From: a virus
Reading direction: 5' to 3' (one strand)
Virus record (IMG/VR): IMGVR_UViG_3300032282_005862
Location: 1 to 64,000 of that record
Length of the DNA: 64,000 nucleotides
How positions within the stretch are numbered: the first letter of the stretch is position 1; every line of letters begins with the position of its first letter. Shown here in pieces: positions 2,822-40,053 of this stretch. The position numbers and the translations under genes are program-made. Below the pieces are notes generated by a model. It did not search any database and had not been told where the DNA came from. It worked only from the letters and a program-made list of their open reading frames with translations.

Positions 2822-2908
2822 TTATTTTTTACAACGACAACCAGAACAACCACAACTTAACTTTAGATTTAACAACCACTTAAACGCTTTTTTTAGTTTT
2901 TTTAACAC
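2822..2908 (-). CDS. Cys-rich microprotein or +1 frame extension (28 aa)
   Basis: In the +1 frame relative to the end of the gene at 2880-3113, a GTG at 2908 opens 28 codons: a lysine-rich helix (LKKLKKAFKWLLNL) followed by SCGCSGCRCKK. Four cysteines in a CxCxxCxC pattern are unlikely by chance in such AT-rich DNA. It could be an overlapping gene or a frameshifted C-terminal extension of the upstream protein. Confidence 0.45.
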   Translation of the reverse strand: MLKKLKKAFKWLLNLKLSCGCSGCRCKK

Positions 2909-3113
2909 TTTTCTTTTTGACTTTCTTTTTCTTTTTTGGCTTTTCTTCCCAAGCACCAGCAATTCCTTCTGCTTGATCTAATTCTGATGTATATTCTTCA
3001 CCAACAAAAGGTTCTACTTCATAAGAATTTTTATTTAACTTATCTTTGATAGCATAAAAAGCATCTTCGATTTTAAATTTAATATTCCAATAGATTTCGT
3101 TTAGAAAATTCAT
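2880..3113 (-). CDS. Hypothetical protein with lysine-rich tail (77 aa)
   Basis: Start placed at the ATG at 3113 (MNFLNEIYW), which overlaps the TGA of the micro-ORF upstream. The N-terminal half is amphipathic, the middle acidic, and the last 25 residues are almost all lysine, serine and threonine. The A-rich codons of that tail are where the reading frame of the Cys-rich microprotein begins. Function unknown. Confidence 0.65.
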   Translation of the reverse strand: MNFLNEIYWNIKFKIEDAFYAIKDKLNKNSYEVEPFVGEEYTSELDQAEGIAGAWEEKPKKKKKVKKKSVKKTKKSV

Positions 3114-3172
3114 ACACGAACTCCAAAAATTCCACCTAAAATAAAACAAGCTGAAAGAATTAAAATTTCCAT
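3110..3172 (-). CDS. Single-pass membrane microprotein (20 aa)
   Basis: ATG at 3172, 20 codons: MEILILSACFILGGIFGVRV, one hydrophobic helix. The TGA overlaps the next ATG (ATGA), the standard coupling in this operon and the main reason to believe it. Too short for family assignment. Confidence 0.45.
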   Translation of the reverse strand: MEILILSACFILGGIFGVRV

Positions 3173-3769: not shown

Positions 3770-4243
3770 TTAATAAACCGCAACTTTAACTATTTTAGGA
3801 TTATTATTTACAAACCTCATAGCTTCTTTTTCTGTTAAGAAAAAAATATCAATAACTGGATATTTGCCTCCACTAGCTTTTTTACGGATAACATCTGTGC
3901 CAGTATCGTGAGCAACTCTAAATCCAAGATTAGGAATATAAATCTTTGAAAAGAAAGGGATAATGCGAGGGTCTACGGCTACGCTTCTATTAGGTTTAAG
4001 CGTAGCACCAGTAGAGCTTTGTCTTTTTGCACTCCAAGAATCAGTATCGCTACCTTTTGCCCAATAAGCAGTTAAGCGAACCTTGATTTCTTTTTTTGGA
4101 ATTAAATCTTTCACAAAAGATTCAACCATTTGATTCTTAATATTATTAGAAATAATAGGTTTGCGAGATGAAGATGTGATTTCGTTCTTGAATAAAATCC
4201 AAGAAGCACATAACAACACAGCTATTCTACATAGTATTTTCAT
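3770..4243 (-). CDS. Exported 3D-domain protein, putative cell-wall enzyme
   Basis: The C-terminal 100 residues match the 3D domain, a small double-psi beta-barrel related to the catalytic part of MltA/RlpA-type lytic transglycosylases. The three aspartates are seen at D91 (AVDPRIIPF), D113 (AHDTGTD) and D132 (VIDIFF). A hydrophobic N-terminal segment (residues 1-19) should export or anchor it, so it probably acts on peptidoglycan in the periplasm, in lysis or wall remodelling. The upstream promoter (4264-4292) and an AGAGG ribosome site make this one of the few genes here with an ordinary leader. Substrate and exact reaction are inferred from the family. Confidence 0.8.
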   Translation of the reverse strand: MKILCRIAVLLCASWILFKNEITSSSRKPIISNNIKNQMVESFVKDLIPKKEIKVRLTAYWAKGSDTDSWSAKRQSSTGATLKPNRSVAVDPRIIPFFSKIYIPNLGFRVAHDTGTDVIRKKASGGKYPVIDIFFLTEKEAMRFVNNNPKIVKVAVY

Positions 4244-25254: not shown

Positions 25255-26247
25255 TTAAATTAAAGATTTATTTCCAGAGAAAATTATTTCAATATACTCA
25301 TTTAATATGTGATTTATTTGAGATCTTATAAAAGATTCCATTGCTTGTAATGTGTTAAATTTATAAAGATTATTATTTTGGAATAATTTATAAGTATGTA
25401 TTTTTTCAAGAATATCACATTTATTTATTATTAATTTATTGACTCCAGAAATTTTAATTGCGTCTATCAGTTTATTTAAATTTAGCCAATTAACTATCCT
25501 TTTTCTACCAGTTGTAGAACCAAACTCTTGACCAATTTCTATTAGCATATTTAATTCATCATCTTGCCAAAGTGATTCTGGAAATAATGGATCTACTCCA
25601 CTTTTTGTATCATAAATTTTAGCTACACCAATAATATCTCTAATTTTTTTAGGACTAAAACCTAATGAACAAGCAGAATAAGGCAAAGTTTCACTACTTG
25701 TAACATAAGGATAATCTCCATAATTTAAATCTAACCAAAAACTTTGTGCGCCTTCACATAGAATATTGCCATAGAGTTCGCCATTCCAAATATATTGTTT
25801 ATCTAAATAATTTCCTGCTAATTTGCCTATTCTTAGGGCTTTATCTGCATATGCTGGTGCAATTCCCTGTCCAGTTGTACCTAATTTTGGTTTTAAAAAT
25901 TTAAGATCATATTGAATATGTCTTTCAGTAATAATATGTGCTTTTGGACTTACTTTAATTAAAGAAGTATCAAATCCTTCTCTTTTAAGATAATCTATTT
26001 CATCAAAAAATTTATCAATATTGATAACACAATTTGGACCAATGACGCTAAGTTTATTTTGAAATACTCCACAAGGAATAATATGAGTTTTATATTTTTT
26101 ATCATTAATATAGACTGTATGACCTGCATTTGGTCCACCATTCCAACGACAAATAATATCATAATTTTTGCTAATAGCATTACTTATTTTACCTTTCCCT
26201 TCATCTCCCCAAGCTAATCCAAATATAATATCTACATTATTAACCAT
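25255..26247 (-). CDS. purA: Adenylosuccinate synthetase (short PurA type)
   Basis: It joins IMP and aspartate with GTP to make adenylosuccinate. Family marks: GDEGKGK at 14-20 with the catalytic Asp D15, NAGHT with H43, the GTTGQGIGP-like segment (GTTGQGIAP, 123-131), TTGRKR at 245-250 for aspartate binding, and NKCD at 275-278 for guanine recognition. The retained Asp and the NKxD motif argue for an IMP/GTP enzyme. PurZ, the 2-aminoadenine enzyme, would be expected to replace that Asp. At 330 aa it is about 100 residues shorter than bacterial PurA and near PurZ/archaeal length, so dGMP use cannot be fully excluded. It has a leaderless promoter. Confidence 0.88.
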   Translation of the reverse strand: MVNNVDIIFGLAWGDEGKGKISNAISKNYDIICRWNGGPNAGHTVYINDKKYKTHIIPCGVFQNKLSVIGPNCVINIDKFFDEIDYLKREGFDTSLIKVSPKAHIITERHIQYDLKFLKPKLGTTGQGIAPAYADKALRIGKLAGNYLDKQYIWNGELYGNILCEGAQSFWLDLNYGDYPYVTSSETLPYSACSLGFSPKKIRDIIGVAKIYDTKSGVDPLFPESLWQDDELNMLIEIGQEFGSTTGRKRIVNWLNLNKLIDAIKISGVNKLIINKCDILEKIHTYKLFQNNNLYKFNTLQAMESFIRSQINHILNEYIEIIFSGNKSLI

Positions 26248-31830: not shown

Positions 31831-32410
31831 AAGAATTTTTACTCTCAACTTTCGTTTTTAATAGTTTGATAGCTTTATTATGAATATTGATAGCAGTTTG
31901 AGTACTAATCTTTAATTTTTTAGCTATCTTATTCCAAGACATTTTTTTATTTGTATTATTTAAATATCTCATTTTGAATATTTTTTCTACTCTTTTATCT
32001 GAGCATGACTCTATGATATTAAAAATATATTCATTAATATTTTTATATTCTTTTTGCGGAGTAATATTTTTTTCTATTAAATAGTTTAATTTATCAGTTT
32101 CAAGTGTCAAATAATGACTATTCTCATTCATGCAATTAAGGCATTGATATCTTACTTGATTGTACAACCAAGTTGAGAATTTAGAATTTTTACAAGGATC
32201 AAAAGACATTGCAGATTTGTATACAATATAATCTTTTTGATCTATTACATCTTGTACGTGAACTCCAGATGTAACCATAGGATTTGAGTATTTTTTATAC
32301 AAAGAATTACAAAGCGCAGAATGTTTATTTATAAGCATTTTTAATGATTCTTCATCATTTTTTTCTTGTATATTTCTTACTAAAGTATTATCGTCTATAT
32401 TTATATTCAT
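31817..32410 (-). CDS. Phage RNA polymerase sigma-like factor
   Basis: Residues about 60-100 (FDPCKNSKFSTWLYNQVRYQCLN) match sigma-70 region 2 (core binding and -10 recognition). Residues about 150-188 (KMSWNKIAKKLKISTQTAINIHNKAIKLLK) form a region 4-type helix-turn-helix. 197 aa fits minimal phage/ECF-like sigma factors. It should direct host RNA polymerase to phage promoters. The recurrent (A/T)GTGTAA(A/T) motif before late-type genes is the obvious candidate target, as an inference. The dNMP kinase gene is immediately upstream. Confidence 0.78.
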   Translation of the reverse strand: MNINIDDNTLVRNIQEKNDEESLKMLINKHSALCNSLYKKYSNPMVTSGVHVQDVIDQKDYIVYKSAMSFDPCKNSKFSTWLYNQVRYQCLNCMNENSHYLTLETDKLNYLIEKNITPQKEYKNINEYIFNIIESCSDKRVEKIFKMRYLNNTNKKMSWNKIAKKLKISTQTAINIHNKAIKLLKTKVESKNSFDKI

Positions 32411-32412
32411 AA

Positions 32413-33000
32413 TTATTTTTTATTCTCCATATATTTTTCATAAATATTTTTTAATTGTTTTTGCATAAGTTCATATAAAAAATTAACATCTTGACATGTT
32501 TCCCAAGAAATCGAGTAATCTGCAACAGCTTTAAGTTTATTATCGTTAGATTTTTCTTCAATATTAGCTGGAGGAATTAAAGATCCATCGTCTAGTTTTC
32601 TAGAAATATGAATAAGAATACCATTGTGTGATTTCAACCAAGAATATTCATCTTCTTTATATTCTATATATCTTACATCAGTAATAATTGGAATAATATT
32701 ATCTTTCTTAAAATTTTTAACTTCTGAATCTACTAATGATGTCCAATATTTACCTTCTGTTTGAACTCTTCTGCATTTACCATATGCAACCATTAATGGT
32801 CTAATTAATTCTTTATCCTTACCTTCACATTTATTTAAATCTATTTTAAATTTTTCTTTTGTAAAATCTCCAAGTTCTTTTTTCAAATTATCAGCTAATG
32901 CAATTCTTTCAGATTTAAGATTTTTTTCTTCTAAATACTTTTTAAGTATTGAATAAAAAGTATCTTTTCCACATCTAGCTACTCCAGTTAATCCTATCAT
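32413..33000 (-). CDS. Deoxynucleoside monophosphate kinase (T4 gp1-like)
   Basis: P-loop GVARCGKD at residues 6-13, then a kinase-like layout with IIPIITDVRYIEYKEDE and a C-terminal helical lid, as in phage dNMP kinases. It phosphorylates dNMPs to dNDPs for phage DNA synthesis and may act on unusual bases. It sits in the nucleotide-metabolism block with the sigma factor and deaminase. Its start overlaps the exported repeat protein gene by four bases. Confidence 0.85.
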   Translation of the reverse strand: MIGLTGVARCGKDTFYSILKKYLEEKNLKSERIALADNLKKELGDFTKEKFKIDLNKCEGKDKELIRPLMVAYGKCRRVQTEGKYWTSLVDSEVKNFKKDNIIPIITDVRYIEYKEDEYSWLKSHNGILIHISRKLDDGSLIPPANIEEKSNDNKLKAVADYSISWETCQDVNFLYELMQKQLKNIYEKYMENKK

Positions 33001-33488
33001 TTTTCTTCTCCATAAGATATTTCTCCAGTTCCATCATATCTAGGATAATCTTGTCCAGTATGAATTTCTTGAGTATTTACTTGATTTTGTATATTTGATT
33101 TTAAAAATTTTGTATCTACATTTTGATCAATATGTTTAGCTTCAAAAGGTTTAGTGAATATTGTACCATGAGATTGATTTGTAGAGGTTGTATCATTTTT
33201 ATATGTTCTATACATTTTGTTTTGAATTATAATAAACTCTGGAAATGGTTTAGAAAATATCGTACCATGAGATTGATTAGTTCCATTGCCTCCTCCAGTT
33301 TTATAAGTTTCATAAACTTCTATACCTCTAGCAGTTTTAATGTAATTATATTCTTGAAAAGGTTTTGTAAAAATTGTTCCATGAGATTCATTACTATTAC
33401 TACTTGTAGTTTTATATGTTTCATATACTACTCCAGATTGAGCTATAGCAAAATTAGCTATAAATAATAATAAGATTATATATTTCAT
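32997..33488 (-). CDS. Exported protein with three internal repeats (163 aa)
   Basis: Signal peptide MKYIILLLFIANFAIA, probable cleavage before QSG. The mature part has three repeats of about 33 residues with the core YETYKT...N.SHGTIFTKPF (about residues 22-47, 58-84 and 92-114), followed by a linker. The repeats are also clear at DNA level. The protein should reach the periplasm or cell surface. No family recognised. Confidence 0.72.
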   Translation of the reverse strand: MKYIILLLFIANFAIAQSGVVYETYKTTSSNSNESHGTIFTKPFQEYNYIKTARGIEVYETYKTGGGNGTNQSHGTIFSKPFPEFIIIQNKMYRTYKNDTTSTNQSHGTIFTKPFEAKHIDQNVDTKFLKSNIQNQVNTQEIHTGQDYPRYDGTGEISYGEEK

Positions 33489-33898
33489 ATTTTAATTAAT
33501 TCTATATTATAAAATTTAAATATTTCTTTAGCTGTAGTATCTTTTTCATATTCTTCTGAGTATACCACAGTTTTAACTCCATATGCAACAATATTTGTTG
33601 CACAATTAGAACAGGGTAATAATGTAGAAGCTAATAAATATGGATCGTCTCCTCTTTTAATTAAAGATAATGCATTAATTTCAGCATGAATCATATATTT
33701 TCTTCTATTATCTCTATCATTAAAAAAATCTTGTTTAATATTAAACTTTGGTAAAAGACCATTATACCCAACCGACAATACTCTACCATCTTTATTTAAA
33801 ATACATACTCCAACTTTTTTATATGGATCTTCTGATCTATTTGACCAAATCTGAGCAGTATGAATTGCTGCTTCAATAAATGATATTCTATTATTCAT
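33485..33898 (-). CDS. dCMP deaminase-like enzyme
   Basis: Start placed at ATG 33898 (MNNRISFIEAAIHTAQ), overlapping the stop of the membrane microprotein gene. The zinc-binding HAE motif (MIHAEINAL) and PCSNC (LLPCSNCATNI) are characteristic of deoxycytidylate deaminases, which convert dCMP to dUMP, the ThyX substrate. Length 137 aa fits. It belongs to the same minus-strand block as dNMP kinase and RNR. Confidence 0.87.
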   Translation of the reverse strand: MNNRISFIEAAIHTAQIWSNRSEDPYKKVGVCILNKDGRVLSVGYNGLLPKFNIKQDFFNDRDNRRKYMIHAEINALSLIKRGDDPYLLASTLLPCSNCATNIVAYGVKTVVYSEEYEKDTTAKEIFKFYNIELIKI

Positions 33899-33966
33899 TT
33901 TGTAGAAAAATGCCAATATAAAGATATTGTAATACCCATTATAATACATGCAACTGTTTGAAACAT
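33895..33966 (-). CDS. Membrane microprotein (23 aa)
   Basis: ATG at 33966, 23 codons, TGA overlapping the deaminase ATG. One hydrophobic helix (VACIIMGITISLYW). One of several similar micro-ORFs coupled by ATGA. Confidence 0.45.
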   Translation of the reverse strand: MFQTVACIIMGITISLYWHFSTK

Positions 33967-34009
33967 AAAGACATATTAAAACTTTTTTATTTTTAAGTCA
34001 ATTATTTTC

Positions 34010-34038
34010 TTGATTCTTTAAGAAGAATAGTTTAATAT
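34010..34038 (+). promoter_or_regulatory. Sigma-70-type promoter, leaderless
   Basis: TTGATT, 17-base spacer, TAATAT, six bases to the ATG at 34045. Confidence 0.72.
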
Positions 34039-34044
34039 AAATAA

Positions 34045-35154
34045 ATGCAAAAACAAGAATTCAAAGAAGCTTTAAGTTACGATGATATTTCGTTACTTCC
34101 AAATTTTTCAAATATTACTTCAAGAAAAGAAGTAAATACAACTACAAAAATTTCAAGAAATTGTAATATCAAAATTCCAATTATTCTCTCTCCAATGGAT
34201 ACAGTATCTTCTGTTAAGTCTTGTATTAAAATGAATAAACTTGGTGCAGCTGGAGTTTTGCATAGATTTATGAGTGTTGATGATCAAAGAGCTAAAGCTA
34301 AAATTATTAAAGATGAAAGTAATTTTTGTGTCACTGCTATTGGTCTAAAAGACGCAGAAGAAAGAATTAGAGCTACTAGTACTTTTACTAATGTTTACTT
34401 TTTAGATACAGCTAATGGTTTAGCTAAGAATGTTGAAGATTTTCTTAGATGGTATAAAACAGTTGGATTTTCTCAAGATGTTATCGTTGGAAATACTTTA
34501 ACGAAAGAAAGCGTATATAGACTTGCTAATCTTAAAGCTGATGGATTTAGACATCTTATTGGTCCAGGGTCAATGTGTTTAACTCAAGTTAAAACTGGAA
34601 TTGGATGTCCAAGTTTAACTGGAAATTATTACGCTTGGAAAGCTGTAAGAAATTGGGAGCTTTCTCAAGTAGATTTATTTAAACAAGATAAACCAAATCC
34701 ATCTCATAGACCAAGTATTCTTGCTGATGGTGGTATTAGATATCCAAAAGATTTAGTTAAAGCTATTGCTAGTGGATGTGATGCTGTTATTTGCGGTAGA
34801 ATTTTTGCTGGATTATCTGATATAGTCGAAGATGAAGATATTGTAGAGATTAATGGTAAAAGATTTGCTAAATATAGAGGAATGGCAAGCCAAGATGTTG
34901 TTGAAGATTATGATTTATATGATGGAACTAAAAAAAATCTTTTTGTAGAAGGAGATAATACTTTAATTCCAATTATTGAAAATAAATCTATAGAAGATAT
35001 TGTATATGATTTTACTAATGGATTAAGAAGTGCTATGAGTTATCTTGGATTCAGAAATTTACAAGATATGAGAGGTGGATTATGGAATAATACTATACAA
35101 GCAGTTAGAAATAGTCCAAATAGTATGTACGAAGGATTTGCTCATGGAAAATAA
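34045..35154 (+). CDS. IMP dehydrogenase / GMP reductase family enzyme
   Basis: TIM-barrel enzyme with the nucleotide-binding loop GPGSMC at 173-178, catalytic cysteine C178. LADGGIRYPKDLVKAIASG and RGMAS follow, and the flap-side segment FVEGDNTLIP comes before GLRSAMSY. It lacks CBS domains (369 aa). The stretch KTGIGCPSL resembles GMP reductase (KTGVGYPQL), but the threonine that normally follows the catalytic Cys (CTT) is Leu here, and other parts resemble IMPDH, so direction and substrate are open. Either enzyme acts at the IMP node also used by the phage PurA. Confidence 0.85.
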   Translation: MQKQEFKEALSYDDISLLPNFSNITSRKEVNTTTKISRNCNIKIPIILSPMDTVSSVKSCIKMNKLGAAGVLHRFMSVDDQRAKAKIIKDESNFCVTAIGLKDAEERIRATSTFTNVYFLDTANGLAKNVEDFLRWYKTVGFSQDVIVGNTLTKESVYRLANLKADGFRHLIGPGSMCLTQVKTGIGCPSLTGNYYAWKAVRNWELSQVDLFKQDKPNPSHRPSILADGGIRYPKDLVKAIASGCDAVICGRIFAGLSDIVEDEDIVEINGKRFAKYRGMASQDVVEDYDLYDGTKKNLFVEGDNTLIPIIENKSIEDIVYDFTNGLRSAMSYLGFRNLQDMRGGLWNNTIQAVRNSPNSMYEGFAHGK

Positions 35155-35158
35155 ATCA

Positions 35159-35920
35159 CTAATCAACAAATGGATTAGTTAATATTATTTTTCCTGTTGC
35201 AAATCCTCCGTATTCTGCTGAACCATATGTTGCCATATTTATTGTAATTTTAGATTTATCTGATGAACCACTAGTTGATCTAAGATTTCCACAGCATCCA
35301 TTTAAACTTTCATAAGTATAATAAAATGGATATATTAATTTATTATTTTTATCAATCCAGCCTCTTTTACCTTCATATGCAAGCCAAAATCCTGCTGCTA
35401 CTCCAAAATATGGTTTTGGATATAGACCATCAGTTGGATAAGTACATTTTCCTCCATCGCTTCTTGTAGGAGCTTTTGGATTAGTAGTATTATCAGCTTC
35501 TGCTCCTCTTGCTGCTTCACCACAAAATAAATCTTTAAGTTCTAATCCTTTTGTCTGTAAAGTAGTAGAACCGCTTGAACTCCATACACCATTGCAAGAT
35601 TGTGGATTTATATTTCCTGCAGCTCCTTTGGCTTCAAAAATTATTTTAATTGAGCTTCTATTCCAAAAAAATCTCATAGCATCTTTATAAGATAATCCTA
35701 TATTTGCTTCTAAATAAGGACTACTTGGAGCTGAATCAGCTAAACAAAATGGAAAAGCTACATTTTTTTCGTCTTCATCTAGAATAAGACAACCATCTTT
35801 TACTGGCGCTTTGATTTGACAAACACAACCTTTTAATGTTTCATCCCTTCCAGCAAGAGCTTCTTCAATATATCCTTTAAGATATTTTGGAAAATCAGCA
35901 TCTTTTAAACTACATGACAT
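35159..35920 (-). CDS. Cys-rich late protein, family member 2 (253 aa)
   Basis: Paralogue of 23652-24476. The N-terminal third aligns well (MSCSLKDADFPKYLKGYIEEALAG.DETLKGC.CQIKAP...GC...DEDEK...FPFC). The C-terminal two thirds have diverged but keep scattered cysteines and an aromatic PYFGVAAGFWLAY. A late-type motif is just upstream, and the nucleotidyltransferase-like gene 35938 ends where that motif begins. Probably a late, virion-related protein; function unknown. Confidence 0.72.
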   Translation of the reverse strand: MSCSLKDADFPKYLKGYIEEALAGRDETLKGCVCQIKAPVKDGCLILDEDEKNVAFPFCLADSAPSSPYLEANIGLSYKDAMRFFWNRSSIKIIFEAKGAAGNINPQSCNGVWSSSGSTTLQTKGLELKDLFCGEAARGAEADNTTNPKAPTRSDGGKCTYPTDGLYPKPYFGVAAGFWLAYEGKRGWIDKNNKLIYPFYYTYESLNGCCGNLRSTSGSSDKSKITINMATYGSAEYGGFATGKIILTNPFVD

Positions 35921-35930
35921 ATGTTTTATA

Positions 35931-35938
35931 TTTACACT
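35931..35938 (-). promoter_or_regulatory. AGTGTAAA late-type motif
   Basis: Minus strand AGTGTAAATATAAAACAT directly precedes the ATG at 35920; the surroundings are nearly identical to those of the pseudogene at 23281. Confidence 0.68.
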
Positions 35939-36411
35939 TAAAAATCATTTAAAATTTTCCAATTTTTAAATTTTGATTTTCTTATTTTATAATTTGGGCA
36001 ATTTTTAAAACCGATTGCTTCTTTTTTATCAAAACCATATAGTAATGTATTTATATCATAAGAAAAAACATTTGGAACAATTACTATATTTTCTCCAATT
36101 AATCCTAAACAATTAAAAGTAAAATCATTTATATAAAATATTTTACATAAATCAATTCTATAATTTCCATATTTTAAAACATAATGAATTTCTAAATTTT
36201 CAATAGAATCTGGTGGAAATTTTTTTATAAAATTATTATATAATTCATCAAAATTATAACATAAAATATCCACTTCTTTATTCCATTTTTCATTTATTAA
36301 TATATTCCTAATAAATCCTCCAAATATCATACAGTCTTCATTATTTAATAAATAAATTATCTGATCTGAAACTTCTGGGTAAGTTTTTATAATATATTGG
36401 TATATATCCAT
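35938..36411 (-). CDS. Nucleotidyltransferase-fold protein, member 2
   Basis: IFGGFIRNILI (G31-G32) and EVDIL with D48 follow the GG...(D/E)xD layout of the nucleotidyltransferase superfamily, as in 24476-24916. Here the first acidic residue is Glu, so catalysis may be altered. 157 aa covers only a catalytic head. Unlike member 1 it lies upstream of its Cys-rich partner and has an early-type promoter (36418-36446). Confidence 0.52.
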   Translation of the reverse strand: MDIYQYIIKTYPEVSDQIIYLLNNEDCMIFGGFIRNILINEKWNKEVDILCYNFDELYNNFIKKFPPDSIENLEIHYVLKYGNYRIDLCKIFYINDFTFNCLGLIGENIVIVPNVFSYDINTLLYGFDKKEAIGFKNCPNYKIRKSKFKNWKILNDF

Positions 36412-36417
36412 TATATT

Positions 36418-36446
36418 ATTATAATACGCATAGTTAGAGTATACAA
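36418..36446 (-). promoter_or_regulatory. Sigma-70-type promoter, leaderless
   Basis: Minus strand TTGTAT, 17-base spacer, TATAAT, six bases to the ATG at 36411. Back to back with the plus promoter at 36454. Confidence 0.7.
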
Positions 36447-36453
36447 ATAAAAA

Positions 36454-36482
36454 TTGATTTTTAATCTATAAATATATACAAT
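36454..36482 (+). promoter_or_regulatory. Sigma-70-type promoter, leaderless
   Basis: TTGATT, 17-base spacer, TACAAT, six bases to the ATG at 36489. Confidence 0.7.
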
Positions 36483-36488
36483 ATTATA

Positions 36489-36740
36489 ATGAATAAAGAA
36501 AATATTGATAAATTAACATCTATTGAATATGCTAGAGCTACAGAATTTAGTCCAATAGTAAGAATATATCCAAAAGTACCTAGGAATACAGTTTGTTCTT
36601 TTACTGGTAAAAAATTCAAAAATTGTTGTGGTCAATTAAATCAAGATTTTTGTGAGAAAGCTAGAGATGCTCTAAAAGAACATCTTATGAAAATTGCAAA
36701 TGAAAAAGAAAATCAAAACAAAAAAGAAGAAACAAATTAA
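36489..36740 (+). CDS. SEC-C-like zinc-binding protein (83 aa)
   Basis: RNTVCSFTGKKFKNCCGQ resembles the SEC-C motif (CxCxSGKKYKKCCG) with one cysteine replaced by Ser, so three of the usual four thiol positions remain. Elsewhere it is helical and charged. SEC-C motifs bind zinc and mediate contacts in SecA and other proteins. A partner cannot be named. Confidence 0.6.
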   Translation: MNKENIDKLTSIEYARATEFSPIVRIYPKVPRNTVCSFTGKKFKNCCGQLNQDFCEKARDALKEHLMKIANEKENQNKKEETN

Positions 36741-36879
36741 ATATTACGCTGTTTACAGTAGAAGTGATAATTTTCTTCATGGAGTATTTCCTCCTTCTAA
36801 AGAAGGTTTGATAAAAGCTAAAGCACATGTTCTTAAACTAGATCCTACAAATAAAAATTATAAAATTAAAAAATATTAA
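36700..36879 (+). CDS. Hypothetical basic protein (59 aa)
   Basis: ATG at 36700 within the tail of the previous gene; an earlier TTG is less likely. Lysine-rich N-terminus, then KYYAVYSRSDNFLHGVFPPSKEG, which looks like a folded domain. It converges on the membrane protein gene with a four-base overlap. Confidence 0.55.
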   Translation: MKKKIKTKKKKQIKYYAVYSRSDNFLHGVFPPSKEGLIKAKAHVLKLDPTNKNYKIKKY

Positions 36880-37862
36880 TGCTTAATATTTGGGTCAGCT
36901 AAGTCTGGATTATGTTGCATTTTTGTACCACGTTTAAAATTTTTATGTAGATTTTCATAAAATACTTTAAAAGTATCTAATGGTTTATCTATAATATTTT
37001 TAATTTTTTGTTCTGTTTTTTGCAATTCTTGATTTTCTACTTTTTTAATAATTGAGTTATAAGCTATAACTAAACATACTGCTAATGGATCAAAAACAAT
37101 AACAATTAATATAATAAATATTCTTACTGCAGTTTCTATTTTTAATCCAAATGCATCAGCTACAAATTTAAATGTACCAATTTCGCCTTTTGTATTATCA
37201 CTCTCTAGTCTCATTATTTCTTGACTATTTTCTAGACTTTGTTTTTCTAAATTTTGAAGATCAGAAGTTACTGTAGATATTTGAGAAAATAAGTTATTGA
37301 TATTAACTTGAGATCCTTCAACTATTTTATTTTTACTTTCTACTAATTTAATATCTGTTACTTTTTCAGTTTTAGCGGAACTGAAAAATCCACCGCCAGT
37401 AGTTTTAGTTGTAGTCACATCTTGTTTAACGGCATTATCTAGAGATGCTTGATATGTTTTTTGTAATTCAATTAAATCTTTTAATTTGCTTTTATTGAAA
37501 TCTATTTGAGAAATATAAAAATTTTGTTGAGATTTTAAACTTTGAATTTTATTTAAGTTTAAAGAATATTGAGAAAAATTACGTTGAAAAGCATCAGAAA
37601 GAAAACCAAAAATACCAAGACTTGTTATGCACATCAGTAATATCGTAGCAGATAGCATATATTTTTTAAGTAAATCATGTATTACTGACCAATATCTATA
37701 AAGATAACTTGCGCTAACTAATTTTGCTATTTCTAAACTTCCAGCCATTATTCCAACGCTCCAAAAACTAGCTGCAAAAAGTAGAGCTATTCCTTTAACT
37801 GAAAAGAATGCTGCACAAGAAGCTAATAAGAAGGCTGATAATCCAAGTATATATTTGAACAT
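36876..37862 (-). CDS. Multi-span membrane protein with coiled-coil domain (328 aa)
   Basis: Three hydrophobic segments in the first 95 residues, a long coiled coil (about 95-240, with a GGGFFSS insertion), a further membrane helix (RIFIILIVIVFDPLAVCLVIA, about 245-270) and a basic tail. Similar membrane proteins of unknown role occur in large phages. The promoter motif is late-type. It might be a virion or assembly factor at the membrane. Confidence 0.72.
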   Translation of the reverse strand: MFKYILGLSAFLLASCAAFFSVKGIALLFAASFWSVGIMAGSLEIAKLVSASYLYRYWSVIHDLLKKYMLSATILLMCITSLGIFGFLSDAFQRNFSQYSLNLNKIQSLKSQQNFYISQIDFNKSKLKDLIELQKTYQASLDNAVKQDVTTTKTTGGGFFSSAKTEKVTDIKLVESKNKIVEGSQVNINNLFSQISTVTSDLQNLEKQSLENSQEIMRLESDNTKGEIGTFKFVADAFGLKIETAVRIFIILIVIVFDPLAVCLVIAYNSIIKKVENQELQKTEQKIKNIIDKPLDTFKVFYENLHKNFKRGTKMQHNPDLADPNIKH

Positions 37863-37876
37863 AATATTTAATCTAA

Positions 37877-37884
37877 ATTACACT
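37877..37884 (-). promoter_or_regulatory. AGTGTAAT late-type motif
   Basis: Minus strand AGTGTAAT, 22 bases before the ATG at 37862; an AATGTAAT variant points the other way at 37890-37897, 15 bases before the GTG at 37905. Confidence 0.58.
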
Positions 37885-37904
37885 TTTAAAATGTAATAAT
37901 ATTA

Positions 37905-38420
37905 GTGATAGTATCTGAAAGAGATATTGATTTCTTTGCTAAAAAATTGGACTTATCTCCAGAAAAAGCATTTTTACTAATCCAAGATCCAGATTGTTTG
38001 CCAGAAATATTAAATAAAATTTCAGAAGAAGATATAGATGGGATTGTTGATATAAGTTTTCCAGTATTTGCAGAAATAACTATTATAAAATATAGTAAAG
38101 ATTTAAAATATTCATTTGAAGAAAAAGAATATGTCTCAGAAGCAGTTGGTTTAAAATTCTATGATTTAATTGGAGAGCCTATTTTAAAAAAATCTATACT
38201 AGAATTCAAACATGACGAAGATACAGCTAAATCACTTTTAGTATTTTTAGGATTTTTTTATAAAAACTTACATAAAGCAAGAAGAGCTTATCCATCAGAA
38301 AATATATATTATAATATAGCAAAAAATGGATTTGAAAATTCAGACAAAATACATATATCAGAACATCTTAAAGACTGGATTAAAATATTAAGAATAATAC
38401 ATAATGAAGTTTGGTTTTAA
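37905..38420 (+). CDS. Hypothetical protein (171 aa)
   Basis: GTG start at 37905. Soluble acidic helical protein (FFAKKLDLSPEKAFLLIQDPD...). No motif. It diverges from the membrane protein gene, and its end meets the 3' end of the minus-strand RNA at 38421. Confidence 0.65.
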   Translation: MIVSERDIDFFAKKLDLSPEKAFLLIQDPDCLPEILNKISEEDIDGIVDISFPVFAEITIIKYSKDLKYSFEEKEYVSEAVGLKFYDLIGEPILKKSILEFKHDEDTAKSLLVFLGFFYKNLHKARRAYPSENIYYNIAKNGFENSDKIHISEHLKDWIKILRIIHNEVWF

Positions 38421-38749
38421 TACGATATCCTAATTATTTAACTTTTCTTTGATATCCAAAAGGGCTTTACCTCCAGATTTTAAATATCTGAAGTTGGGTA
38501 TTATCAATCCAACTTTTCTTTTGACTCCAAATTTCACCACGATCTCAGTGATGAATGGGCCATCGCACTTACGGATCAGAGGTAGCTTCGATCACTACAT
38601 TCTGCGATGCCTATAGCTACATTTCCTTCTTTAGCCATATTATGTACAAATGAAGGTTTTAATAGTTGTCAGCCCTTAGGACATTGCTATCTCAAGGATT
38701 GATAGTTGATTATTTGACATCAACAAACTGCTCTAATTGGGAACTATGT
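38421..38749 (-). ncRNA. Structured RNA of unknown family (about 330 nt)
   Basis: No open frame fits, but many stems form on the minus strand: TTCATCAC/GTGGTGAA, AAGTTGG/CCAACTT, TTCAGAT/ATCTGGA, GGCATCGC/GCGATgGCC, CCTTC/GAAGG, GTTGAT/ATCAAC, a long-range AAGGGCT/AGCCCTT, and a closing CC-AATTA/TAATT-a-GG near the two ends. In two stems the G-U pairs work only if the minus strand is the RNA. A perfect-spaced promoter (38756-38784) would start transcription near 38749. It does not match RNase P, 6S, group I/II intron or SRP consensus sequences that I know. Ends are approximate. Confidence 0.68.
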
Positions 38750-38755
38750 TAACTT

Positions 38756-38784
38756 ATAGTATATTAAGTTTGAAGTTTTGTCAA
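38756..38784 (-). promoter_or_regulatory. Sigma-70 promoter for the structured RNA
   Basis: Minus strand TTGACA, 17-base spacer, TACTAT; start expected about 38749. It interleaves with the plus promoter at 38770-38798. Confidence 0.78.
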
Positions 38785-38798
38785 ATTATTTTTATAAT
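38770..38798 (+). promoter_or_regulatory. Sigma-70-type promoter, leaderless
   Basis: TTGAAG, 17-base spacer, TATAAT, six bases to the ATG at 38805. Confidence 0.68.
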
Positions 38799-38804
38799 AT
38801 ATTA

Positions 38805-39014
38805 ATGGAAATTATAAAAAATAAAGCCAGATGGTCAGCTTATGCAAATAAATGTGTTAAGCATTATAATATTTCTAATGAGAATATTTATGATGAACCA
38901 GAGCAATATCCATGTATCGCAATACCCCAGTTAATTTCTGATATGAATGGATCAAGAGTTAAATTTAATTTTGTTTATAAAAAAGATTGCCAAAGATTAT
39001 TAAAAGCTTTATAA
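38805..39014 (+). CDS. Hypothetical protein (69 aa)
   Basis: ATG at 38805 (MEIIKNKARWSAYANK) placed by the promoter. Soluble, with two cysteines. It lies between the structured RNA and the tmRNA. Function unknown. Confidence 0.6.
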   Translation: MEIIKNKARWSAYANKCVKHYNISNENIYDEPEQYPCIAIPQLISDMNGSRVKFNFVYKKDCQRLLKAL

Positions 39015-39022
39015 TGTGTAAT
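39015..39022 (+). promoter_or_regulatory. GTGTAA-type motif before tmRNA
   Basis: TGTGTAAT, 29 bases before the mature tmRNA 5' end. It could drive the tmRNA, leaving a short 5' trailer to be processed. Confidence 0.4.
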
Positions 39023-39043
39023 ATCAGTTAGTTCTTTAACATT

Positions 39044-39431
39044 GGGCCAGATTTGGTTTCGATTTTAGGAATTAGAATTGAAATGCAAGTGGAGGTTGAA
39101 TCGAGGACTCCTTAAAAAGTTTCAATTATATTAACTGCCAAAACAGCAAAATATAAAGGTCATATTTCTGCAAGAGTTTCTCTTGTTGAGATGACCGCTT
39201 CTGTAGCCTAAGTTCTACAGCGTGATATCCACGACACATCTACTGGAATATTGCGTAATTAGATGTTTGAGTATAATAAGTTTTTTTATTCTTTTTTTAT
39301 TCAATATCTAAAATAAAATCGCTAAGTATGTTTGTTGTTTATCTATACGAAGTTAAAAATAAAAACAACTAAACTTGTAGTATTTTAATTTGTATTCTCT
39401 AAAAGAAGCGGTTCGACTCCGCACTGGTCCA
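39044..39431 (+). ncRNA. ssrA: tmRNA
   Basis: The 5' end GGGCCAGATTTGGTTTCGA and the 3' end GCGGTTCGACTCCGCACTGGTCC form a tRNA-like domain; GGGCCAG pairs with CTGGTCC and GCGG/CCGC forms the T-stem. A tag frame from GCC at 39137 to TAA at 39209 encodes 24 residues, AKTAKYKGHIS...EMTASVA. The total of about 388 nt is normal. tmRNA rescues stalled ribosomes and tags the product for proteolysis. CCA is not encoded. Confidence 0.9.
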
Positions 39432-39498
39432 AGTAAACGAATTGATTCGCCTCCAATTTATATTAGAATATAGTTTCTCATTGATATATAATATAAAA

Positions 39499-40053
39499 AT
39501 GGCAGTATCTAAAATACAATTAAAATGTCTTTATTGTGGAAATATATTTGATAAATTAAAATCGGAATATAATAGAAGAGTTAGTAAAGGTAAAACTAAA
39601 TTTTATTGCAGTTACAAATGCGTTGGTAAGGCTGATGTCGATAAGAATCCAGATAAATTTAAAAAATTTAGAGAAGCTAATGCTATTAGAATAAAAAAAT
39701 ATTGTGGATGTAGACTAGACCAATATAGTCCATTCAAATACCATGCAAATAAAGCTAGATCACGAAGTAAACAAAAAGGATACATAACAGATTTAACTAC
39801 AGAATATTTAAAAGAAATTTGGGATAAACAAAATGGAATTTGTCCATATACAAAAATACAAATGGAACTAAGTAGAACAAGCGGCGATGAAGATATTAAA
39901 AAAACTCCCACAAAAGCAAGCCTAGATAGAATCGATCCGAATATAGGATATATAAAAGGTAATGTTGAATTTGTATGTTATTGTATTAATGTAATGAAAA
40001 ATGATTTTACAAAAGATCAAATGCTTAATTTTATAAATTTAATTAAAAAATAG
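39499..40053 (+). CDS. HNH homing endonuclease downstream of tmRNA
   Basis: Start at ATG 39499 (MAVSKIQLKCLYCG). An N-terminal zinc-ribbon-like part (CLYCGNIF...FYCSYKC) is followed by a C-terminal HNH variant: GICPYTKIQM...SLDRIDPNIGYIKGNVEFVCYCIN. This combination is typical of free-standing phage HNH endonucleases. It lies 67 bases after the tmRNA, another RNA-gene-adjacent mobile element like that beside tRNA-Ser. Confidence 0.83.
   Translation: MAVSKIQLKCLYCGNIFDKLKSEYNRRVSKGKTKFYCSYKCVGKADVDKNPDKFKKFREANAIRIKKYCGCRLDQYSPFKYHANKARSRSKQKGYITDLTTEYLKEIWDKQNGICPYTKIQMELSRTSGDEDIKKTPTKASLDRIDPNIGYIKGNVEFVCYCINVMKNDFTKDQMLNFINLIKK

Follow-up and report, generated by a model that had tools for sequence, protein, structure and literature searches.

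A predicted cysteine-rich microprotein gene overlapping the end of a lysine-rich protein gene in a phage genome

The overlapping genes and their neighbourhood

The window, i.e., the whole stretch of DNA that was analysed, comprises 64,000 nucleotides and represents positions 1 to 64,000 of the 98,629-base IMG/VR virus record IMGVR_UViG_3300032282_005862. On its minus strand, a cysteine-rich reading frame opens with GTG inside the 3' end of a gene for a lysine-rich protein, runs in the +1 frame relative to that gene and ends in the residues SCGCSGCRCKK (Table 1). An earlier note had described this GTG-opened frame of 28 codons, and its coordinates and sequence were all found to be correct on re-reading. 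Upstream of the GTG, the frame remains open as far as a TTG at 2962, and a mechanical ORF finder accordingly reports 46 aa. The predicted microprotein is the last member of a trio that begins with a membrane-type peptide of 20–21 aa, whose membrane character was judged by inspection, and continues with the Lys-rich protein.

Table 1 Features of the overlapping genes in the window
Feature	Position	Strand	Remarks
Predicted Cys-rich microprotein gene VLKKLKKAFKWLLNLKLSCGCSGCRCKK	2822..2908	minus	GTG start at 2908; 28 codons; stop codon TAA ending at 2822
Overlap read in both frames	2880..2908	minus	29 nt, 0-frame stop codon counted in
Invariant AAAAAGAAAA, abutting the GTG	2909..2918	minus	A-rich; candidate site of ribosome loading or of a +1 shift
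Gene of the Lys-rich 77-aa protein, overlapped at its 3' end	2880..3113	minus	Conserved in 12/12 distinct sequences
20-aa membrane-type peptide MEILILSACFILGGIFGVRV	3110..3172	minus	ATGA overlap with the Lys-rich gene

The trio is embedded in a common gene order, in which a gene for a 3D-domain protein is followed by two small genes and then by those for the membrane peptide, the Lys-rich protein and the microprotein. The 3D-domain protein is encoded on the same strand and upstream of the trio in all 12 contigs that were retrieved via its gene; in the window (3770–4243) it has a hydrophobic N-terminus and is likely a cell-wall enzyme. Further neighbours on the minus strand encode RIIA, ribonucleotide reductase, DNA ligase, a clamp loader, a sigma-factor-like protein and proteins of nucleotide metabolism. 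Two separate dCMP deaminase-like genes occur in this one phage (4606–5019 and 33485–33949), and a short (330 aa) adenylosuccinate synthetase-like protein is encoded at 25255–26247. The best PHROG for the latter is named 2-aminooxy adenylosuccinate synthetase, and its NCBIfam scores are 258.8 bits for adenylosuccinate synthase vs. 96.1 bits for PurZ, all below cut-off. At about 32000–40000 the GC skew reverses its sign, and the larger ORFs, until there mostly on the minus strand, are mostly on the plus strand thereafter.

A perfect palindrome, GTTAGTATATACTAAC, is located at 2782–2797, immediately in front of the start codon (ATG) of the following gene (2580–2780). It occupies the same place in eight of the 12 distinct relatives and is absent, with two or fewer mismatches allowed, from the other four loci; at the same tolerance, the window holds one copy vs. 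0.02 expected. The palindrome is possibly an operator, an RNA hairpin or a promoter element. In one relative (L001, 8902–9291), the 66-aa and 53-aa genes that trail the microprotein gene (2580–2780 and 2379–2540 in the window) are each present a second time.

Conservation and selection in the second frame

Relatives were collected by two routes. Scanning IMG/VR with the neighbouring 3D-domain protein yielded 12 contigs, which were thus not selected for the microprotein, and all 12 encode it. A DNA pattern around the GTG gave 28 stretches, comprising 13 true relatives on 13 contigs and 15 unrelated chance matches; contig 46356 was the sole relative that this pattern added to the set found through the 3D-domain neighbour. 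The window and the 13 contigs amount to 12 distinct sequences: over the module, L017 duplicates L016 and L044 duplicates L013, and neither L017 nor L044 enters any 12-sequence count (L010 and L015 denote a single contig). A profile of the microprotein detected one copy per record in 14 records. Of the 13 known contigs, a pattern scan free of any overlap requirement recovered only 12, and no free-standing homologue turned up in it.

The GTG start, the +1 frame and the 29-nt overlap are identical in 12 of 12 distinct sequences. Conservation of the frame in related phages had been proposed as a check in the earlier note, and none of the 12 sequences contains an in-frame stop; above the GTG, the open frame closes within 7–23 codons in the relatives. 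Ten of the 12 sequences encode short forms of the microprotein, nine of 28 aa and one of 31 aa, and two relatives carry long forms of 47–48 aa with 8 and 7 Cys. The residues C19, C21 and C24 are invariant (12/12). A fourth Cys is present in nine of the ten short forms and is replaced by Tyr in L010, which thus has three Cys only. L005 has most of residues 8–12 and much of the DNA beyond the overlap replaced but retains the frame and the Cys motif. The Lys-rich protein ranges from 62 to 77 aa across the 12 distinct sequences and shares 47–90% identity with the window protein in five relatives; the microprotein is much more strongly conserved than the Lys-rich protein in L007 (89% vs. 46%) and in L006 (82% vs. 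45%). All 10 positions of AAAAAGAAAA are identical in 12/12 sequences, and two positions just above it vary.

Ratios of pN/pS, which are indications and not probabilities as counts are small and the sequences related, change sharply at the start codon: in the +1 frame we obtained 2.8 for the seven codons that precede the GTG vs. 0.16 for codons 2–8 (10 sequences). Across the overlap, pN/pS is 0.14 in the +1 frame and 0.81 in the 0-frame (12 sequences), and the +1 value stays at 0.10–0.16 when any single sequence is dropped. The two Leu codons of the overlap vary between TTA and CTA only, and the 0-frame residues at these sites vary between V/A and T/A/S/V. Past the 0-frame stop, codons 11–24 give 0.41 in the +1 frame vs. 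0.82 and 1.59 in the other frames (12 sequences), and these other two frames contain stops in 11/12 and 8/12 sequences. The 10-sequence set drops L011 and L014, in which indels in the Lys tail misalign upstream codons; upstream pS was 0.36 with this misalignment and 0.18 after cleaning. In the cleaned set, the 0-frame has a pN/pS of 0.67 with a pS of 0.12 in the overlap, and 0.27 with a pS of 0.18 just upstream (10 sequences). Without the indel carriers, the overlap shows a modest deficit at synonymous sites, and the switch in pN/pS at the GTG is the stronger sign. Purifying selection is specific to the +1 frame and sets in at the start codon (small counts, 10 sequences).

Could such a frame arise by chance? 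The earlier note had regarded four ordered cysteines in AT-rich DNA as unlikely by chance; their spacing is more remarkable than their presence near the end of the protein. The CxCxxCxC pattern occurs in 1 of 644 window ORFs of 20–100 aa, the microprotein itself, and any ORF with this pattern in only 1 of 80 simulated windows (40 first-order and 40 second-order Markov). Under the looser criterion of four Cys in the last 15 residues there are two such ORFs in the window, and 23 of the 80 simulated windows contain at least one. The Cys count alone is suggestive rather than decisive, and we regard the microprotein as real because it is conserved, not because of its Cys count. An open frame that merely happens to run over a low-complexity Lys tail and yields no product would not be rare in a single sequence: with the 0-frame protein fixed and the codon usage of the window, the probability that the +1 frame is open across the overlap and contains a start codon is 0.07–0.25 per sequence. 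However, start, frame and Cys motif are retained in 12/12 sequences, the largely rewritten L005 included, and the selection is specific to one frame beside two that are interrupted by stops in most relatives. A chance frame is hardly credible on these grounds and, as far as sequence can go, may be taken as refuted. The reading as an overlapping gene put forward in the earlier note thus gains support from the invariant GTG, frame and overlap as well as from purifying selection from the GTG on, and the microprotein is almost certainly encoded by a real overlapping gene. The sequence by itself is enough to demonstrate it, since the start codon marks the point at which selection on the second frame begins. 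Very short genes that share sequence with another gene tend to be missed by gene callers, and one of 28 aa that begins with GTG within a low-complexity Lys tail is a hard case.

Initiation of translation

No recognisable Shine-Dalgarno sequence was found before the GTG, and we therefore infer that loading or reinitiation involves ribosomes translating the Lys-rich gene. These ribosomes might clear the A-rich stretch before the GTG and load there; alternatively, they might terminate at the TAA, 26 nt further on, and then move back to the GTG to reinitiate. One mRNA would give rise to three tiny proteins made together, the membrane-type peptide, the Lys-rich protein and the microprotein. According to the available part of PMC10666635, reinitiation near the stop couples the coat and lysis genes of the RNA phage fr, which share an overlap of 34 nt, and the start nearest the stop is always used; reinitiation is described there as strongly distance-dependent, steeply so in native E. 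coli gene pairs, and long overlaps as rare. In 11/12 sequences of the present set, a TTG at codon 12, just past the 0-frame stop, is nearer to that stop than the GTG, which counts against simple reinitiation at the GTG. Direct loading on the A-rich stretch would sidestep this difficulty.

Two other start codons were considered and rejected. For the TTG at 2962, which would open the 46-aa ORF, 7/12 sequences have no start codon in the part of the frame that is open above the GTG, and this part is free of +1 selection. The codon-12 TTG as sole start would give a 17-aa product; L005 lacks this TTG, and codons 2–8 are under selection in the +1 frame. A second, shorter product from the codon-12 TTG is possible. 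Initiation at the GTG itself we consider likely.

The earlier note had also suggested a programmed +1 frameshift. Slippage of the ribosome or of the transcript near AAA-A/GTG or at the A7 run would extend the Lys-rich protein to the Cys motif, and the GTG would then simply be a valine codon. The sequence AAG AAA AGT G is invariant in 12/12, so that tRNA-Lys could re-pair after a +1 slip, the A7 run in the overlap is also invariant, and the onset of +1 selection at the GTG fits a slip exactly there equally well as a start. However, dual coding alone accounts for the A runs and would likewise be expected to preserve AAG AAA AGT G, and a shift at the A7 run predicts that codons 1–5 are unselected, yet their +1 reading is conserved. 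The final sense codon ahead of the TAA is not a conserved shift-prone codon but varies (GTT in 10, CTT in 1 and AAT in 1 of 12 sequences). The consensus fold of the RNA is weak, with −4.34 kcal/mol for 281 columns (a value without shuffled control). Of its seven pairs that show two-sided changes, five belong to the palindrome downstream of the gene and two are situated around the overlap. What stands of the frameshift proposal is that AAA-A/GTG could let tRNA-Lys slip, whereas the weak fold and the variable codon before the 0-frame stop lend it little support, and we consider a frameshift unlikely. Favoured over a +1 slip, and the most likely mode, is initiation at the GTG that benefits from translation of the Lys-rich gene.

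The predicted product and its relation to known systems

The microprotein consists of a basic N-terminal segment, rich in Leu, Phe and Trp, that is followed by CxCxxC(xC). AlphaFold2 places a helix at residues 2–15 with a mean pLDDT of 56.9 and a pTM of 0.24; in this low-confidence model the N-terminal segment is probably helical, and the helical moment is ordinary for a segment of this composition (163–495 of 2000 shuffles reach the same value). The basic helix may sit on a membrane or on nucleic acid, and CxCxxC(xC) would probably bind a metal such as zinc. As RIIA, replication and nucleotide-metabolism genes are neighbours, we infer that the phage is T4-like and that the microprotein serves early in it, in an accessory or host-takeover role and perhaps as a non-essential peptide. 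Its assignment as a metal-binding accessory peptide is tentative.

The microprotein gave no match against Pfam and PHROGs (E 1) or NCBIfam (E 10), and its profile had none among PDB sequences (E 10). No match was obtained with the 47-aa form by tblastn (E 10) in 50,697 phage records or with the Lys-rich protein by tblastn (E 1) in the phage collection. Among species-genome contigs, the microprotein DNA pattern recovered no relative, and the Lys-rich alignment returned 591 pattern stretches and no relative. The literature searched on such genes or phages yielded no description of the microprotein family, and the part of the Far-T4 paper that was available (PMC4360716) has no bearing on the microprotein gene. 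Within the searches made, there is no described family for any member of the trio. Small overlapping phage genes are a well-known kind; the microprotein family, within these searches, appears undescribed.

The first member of the trio, the 20–21 aa peptide with its 4-nt ATGA overlap, is found in 12/12 sequences and has a pN/pS of 0.385 over codons 1–18. One could conceive of the trio and the 3D-domain protein as a lysis or envelope cassette that unites a secreted wall enzyme, a tiny membrane peptide and a basic membrane-active peptide and is expressed in the manner of the coat/lysis overlap of RNA phages. The constant position of the 3D-domain gene upstream on the same strand, in contigs that were themselves found through this gene, would agree with such a cassette, as would the ubiquity of the membrane-type peptide and the basic microprotein N-terminus with its Leu, Phe and Trp. 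However, the replication and nucleotide-metabolism neighbours suggest early expression, two unrelated small genes separate the 3D-domain gene from the trio, a function of the Cys motif in lysis is not apparent, and the PHROG holin match of the Lys-rich protein is weak and not significant (E 0.054). A lysis cassette is therefore decidedly improbable. The trio might instead encode one small membrane-bound, metal-dependent host-takeover complex, in which the fixed 4-nt and 29-nt overlaps and the gene order would set a three-part ratio; this, too, is rather unlikely.

Overall, the best explanation of the locus, with a probability of roughly 0.7, appears to be a real GTG-started gene that is coupled to the Lys-rich gene and encodes a basic segment followed by a candidate metal motif. 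The locus points to an undescribed phage microprotein trio, and the microprotein is a portable and clean test case for how reinitiation could work across 29 nt of overlap when no Shine-Dalgarno sequence is present.

Bacterial metallothioneins contain clusters of the CxCxxCxC type. The microprotein resembles them in its short motif with CxC/CxxC spacing and in the additional Cys of the two long forms. Unlike metallothioneins, neither the short form nor the two long forms match a Pfam (E 1) or NCBIfam (E 10) family, and 10/12 sequences have only 3–4 Cys. To our knowledge, a basic N-terminal segment is not part of the bacterial metallothionein family.

Compared with the programmed +1 frameshift fusions of phages and mobile elements treated in the accessible part of PMC5009743, the shift signal at the present locus is only a candidate, and the selection pattern fits a plain start equally well. 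A parallel in gene arrangement is offered by the coat and lysis genes of fr, as far as the available part of PMC10666635 describes them. The phage studied here is an unrelated DNA phage, its proteins are different, and in 11/12 sequences a TTG just beyond the stop is closer to it than the GTG. In both systems, however, a small downstream gene starts within the upstream gene, with an overlap of 34 nt in fr and 29 nt here; termination-reinitiation coupling has been proposed for fr (PMC10666635), and the length of the overlap and the missing Shine-Dalgarno sequence fit such coupling as a candidate mechanism for the microprotein gene.
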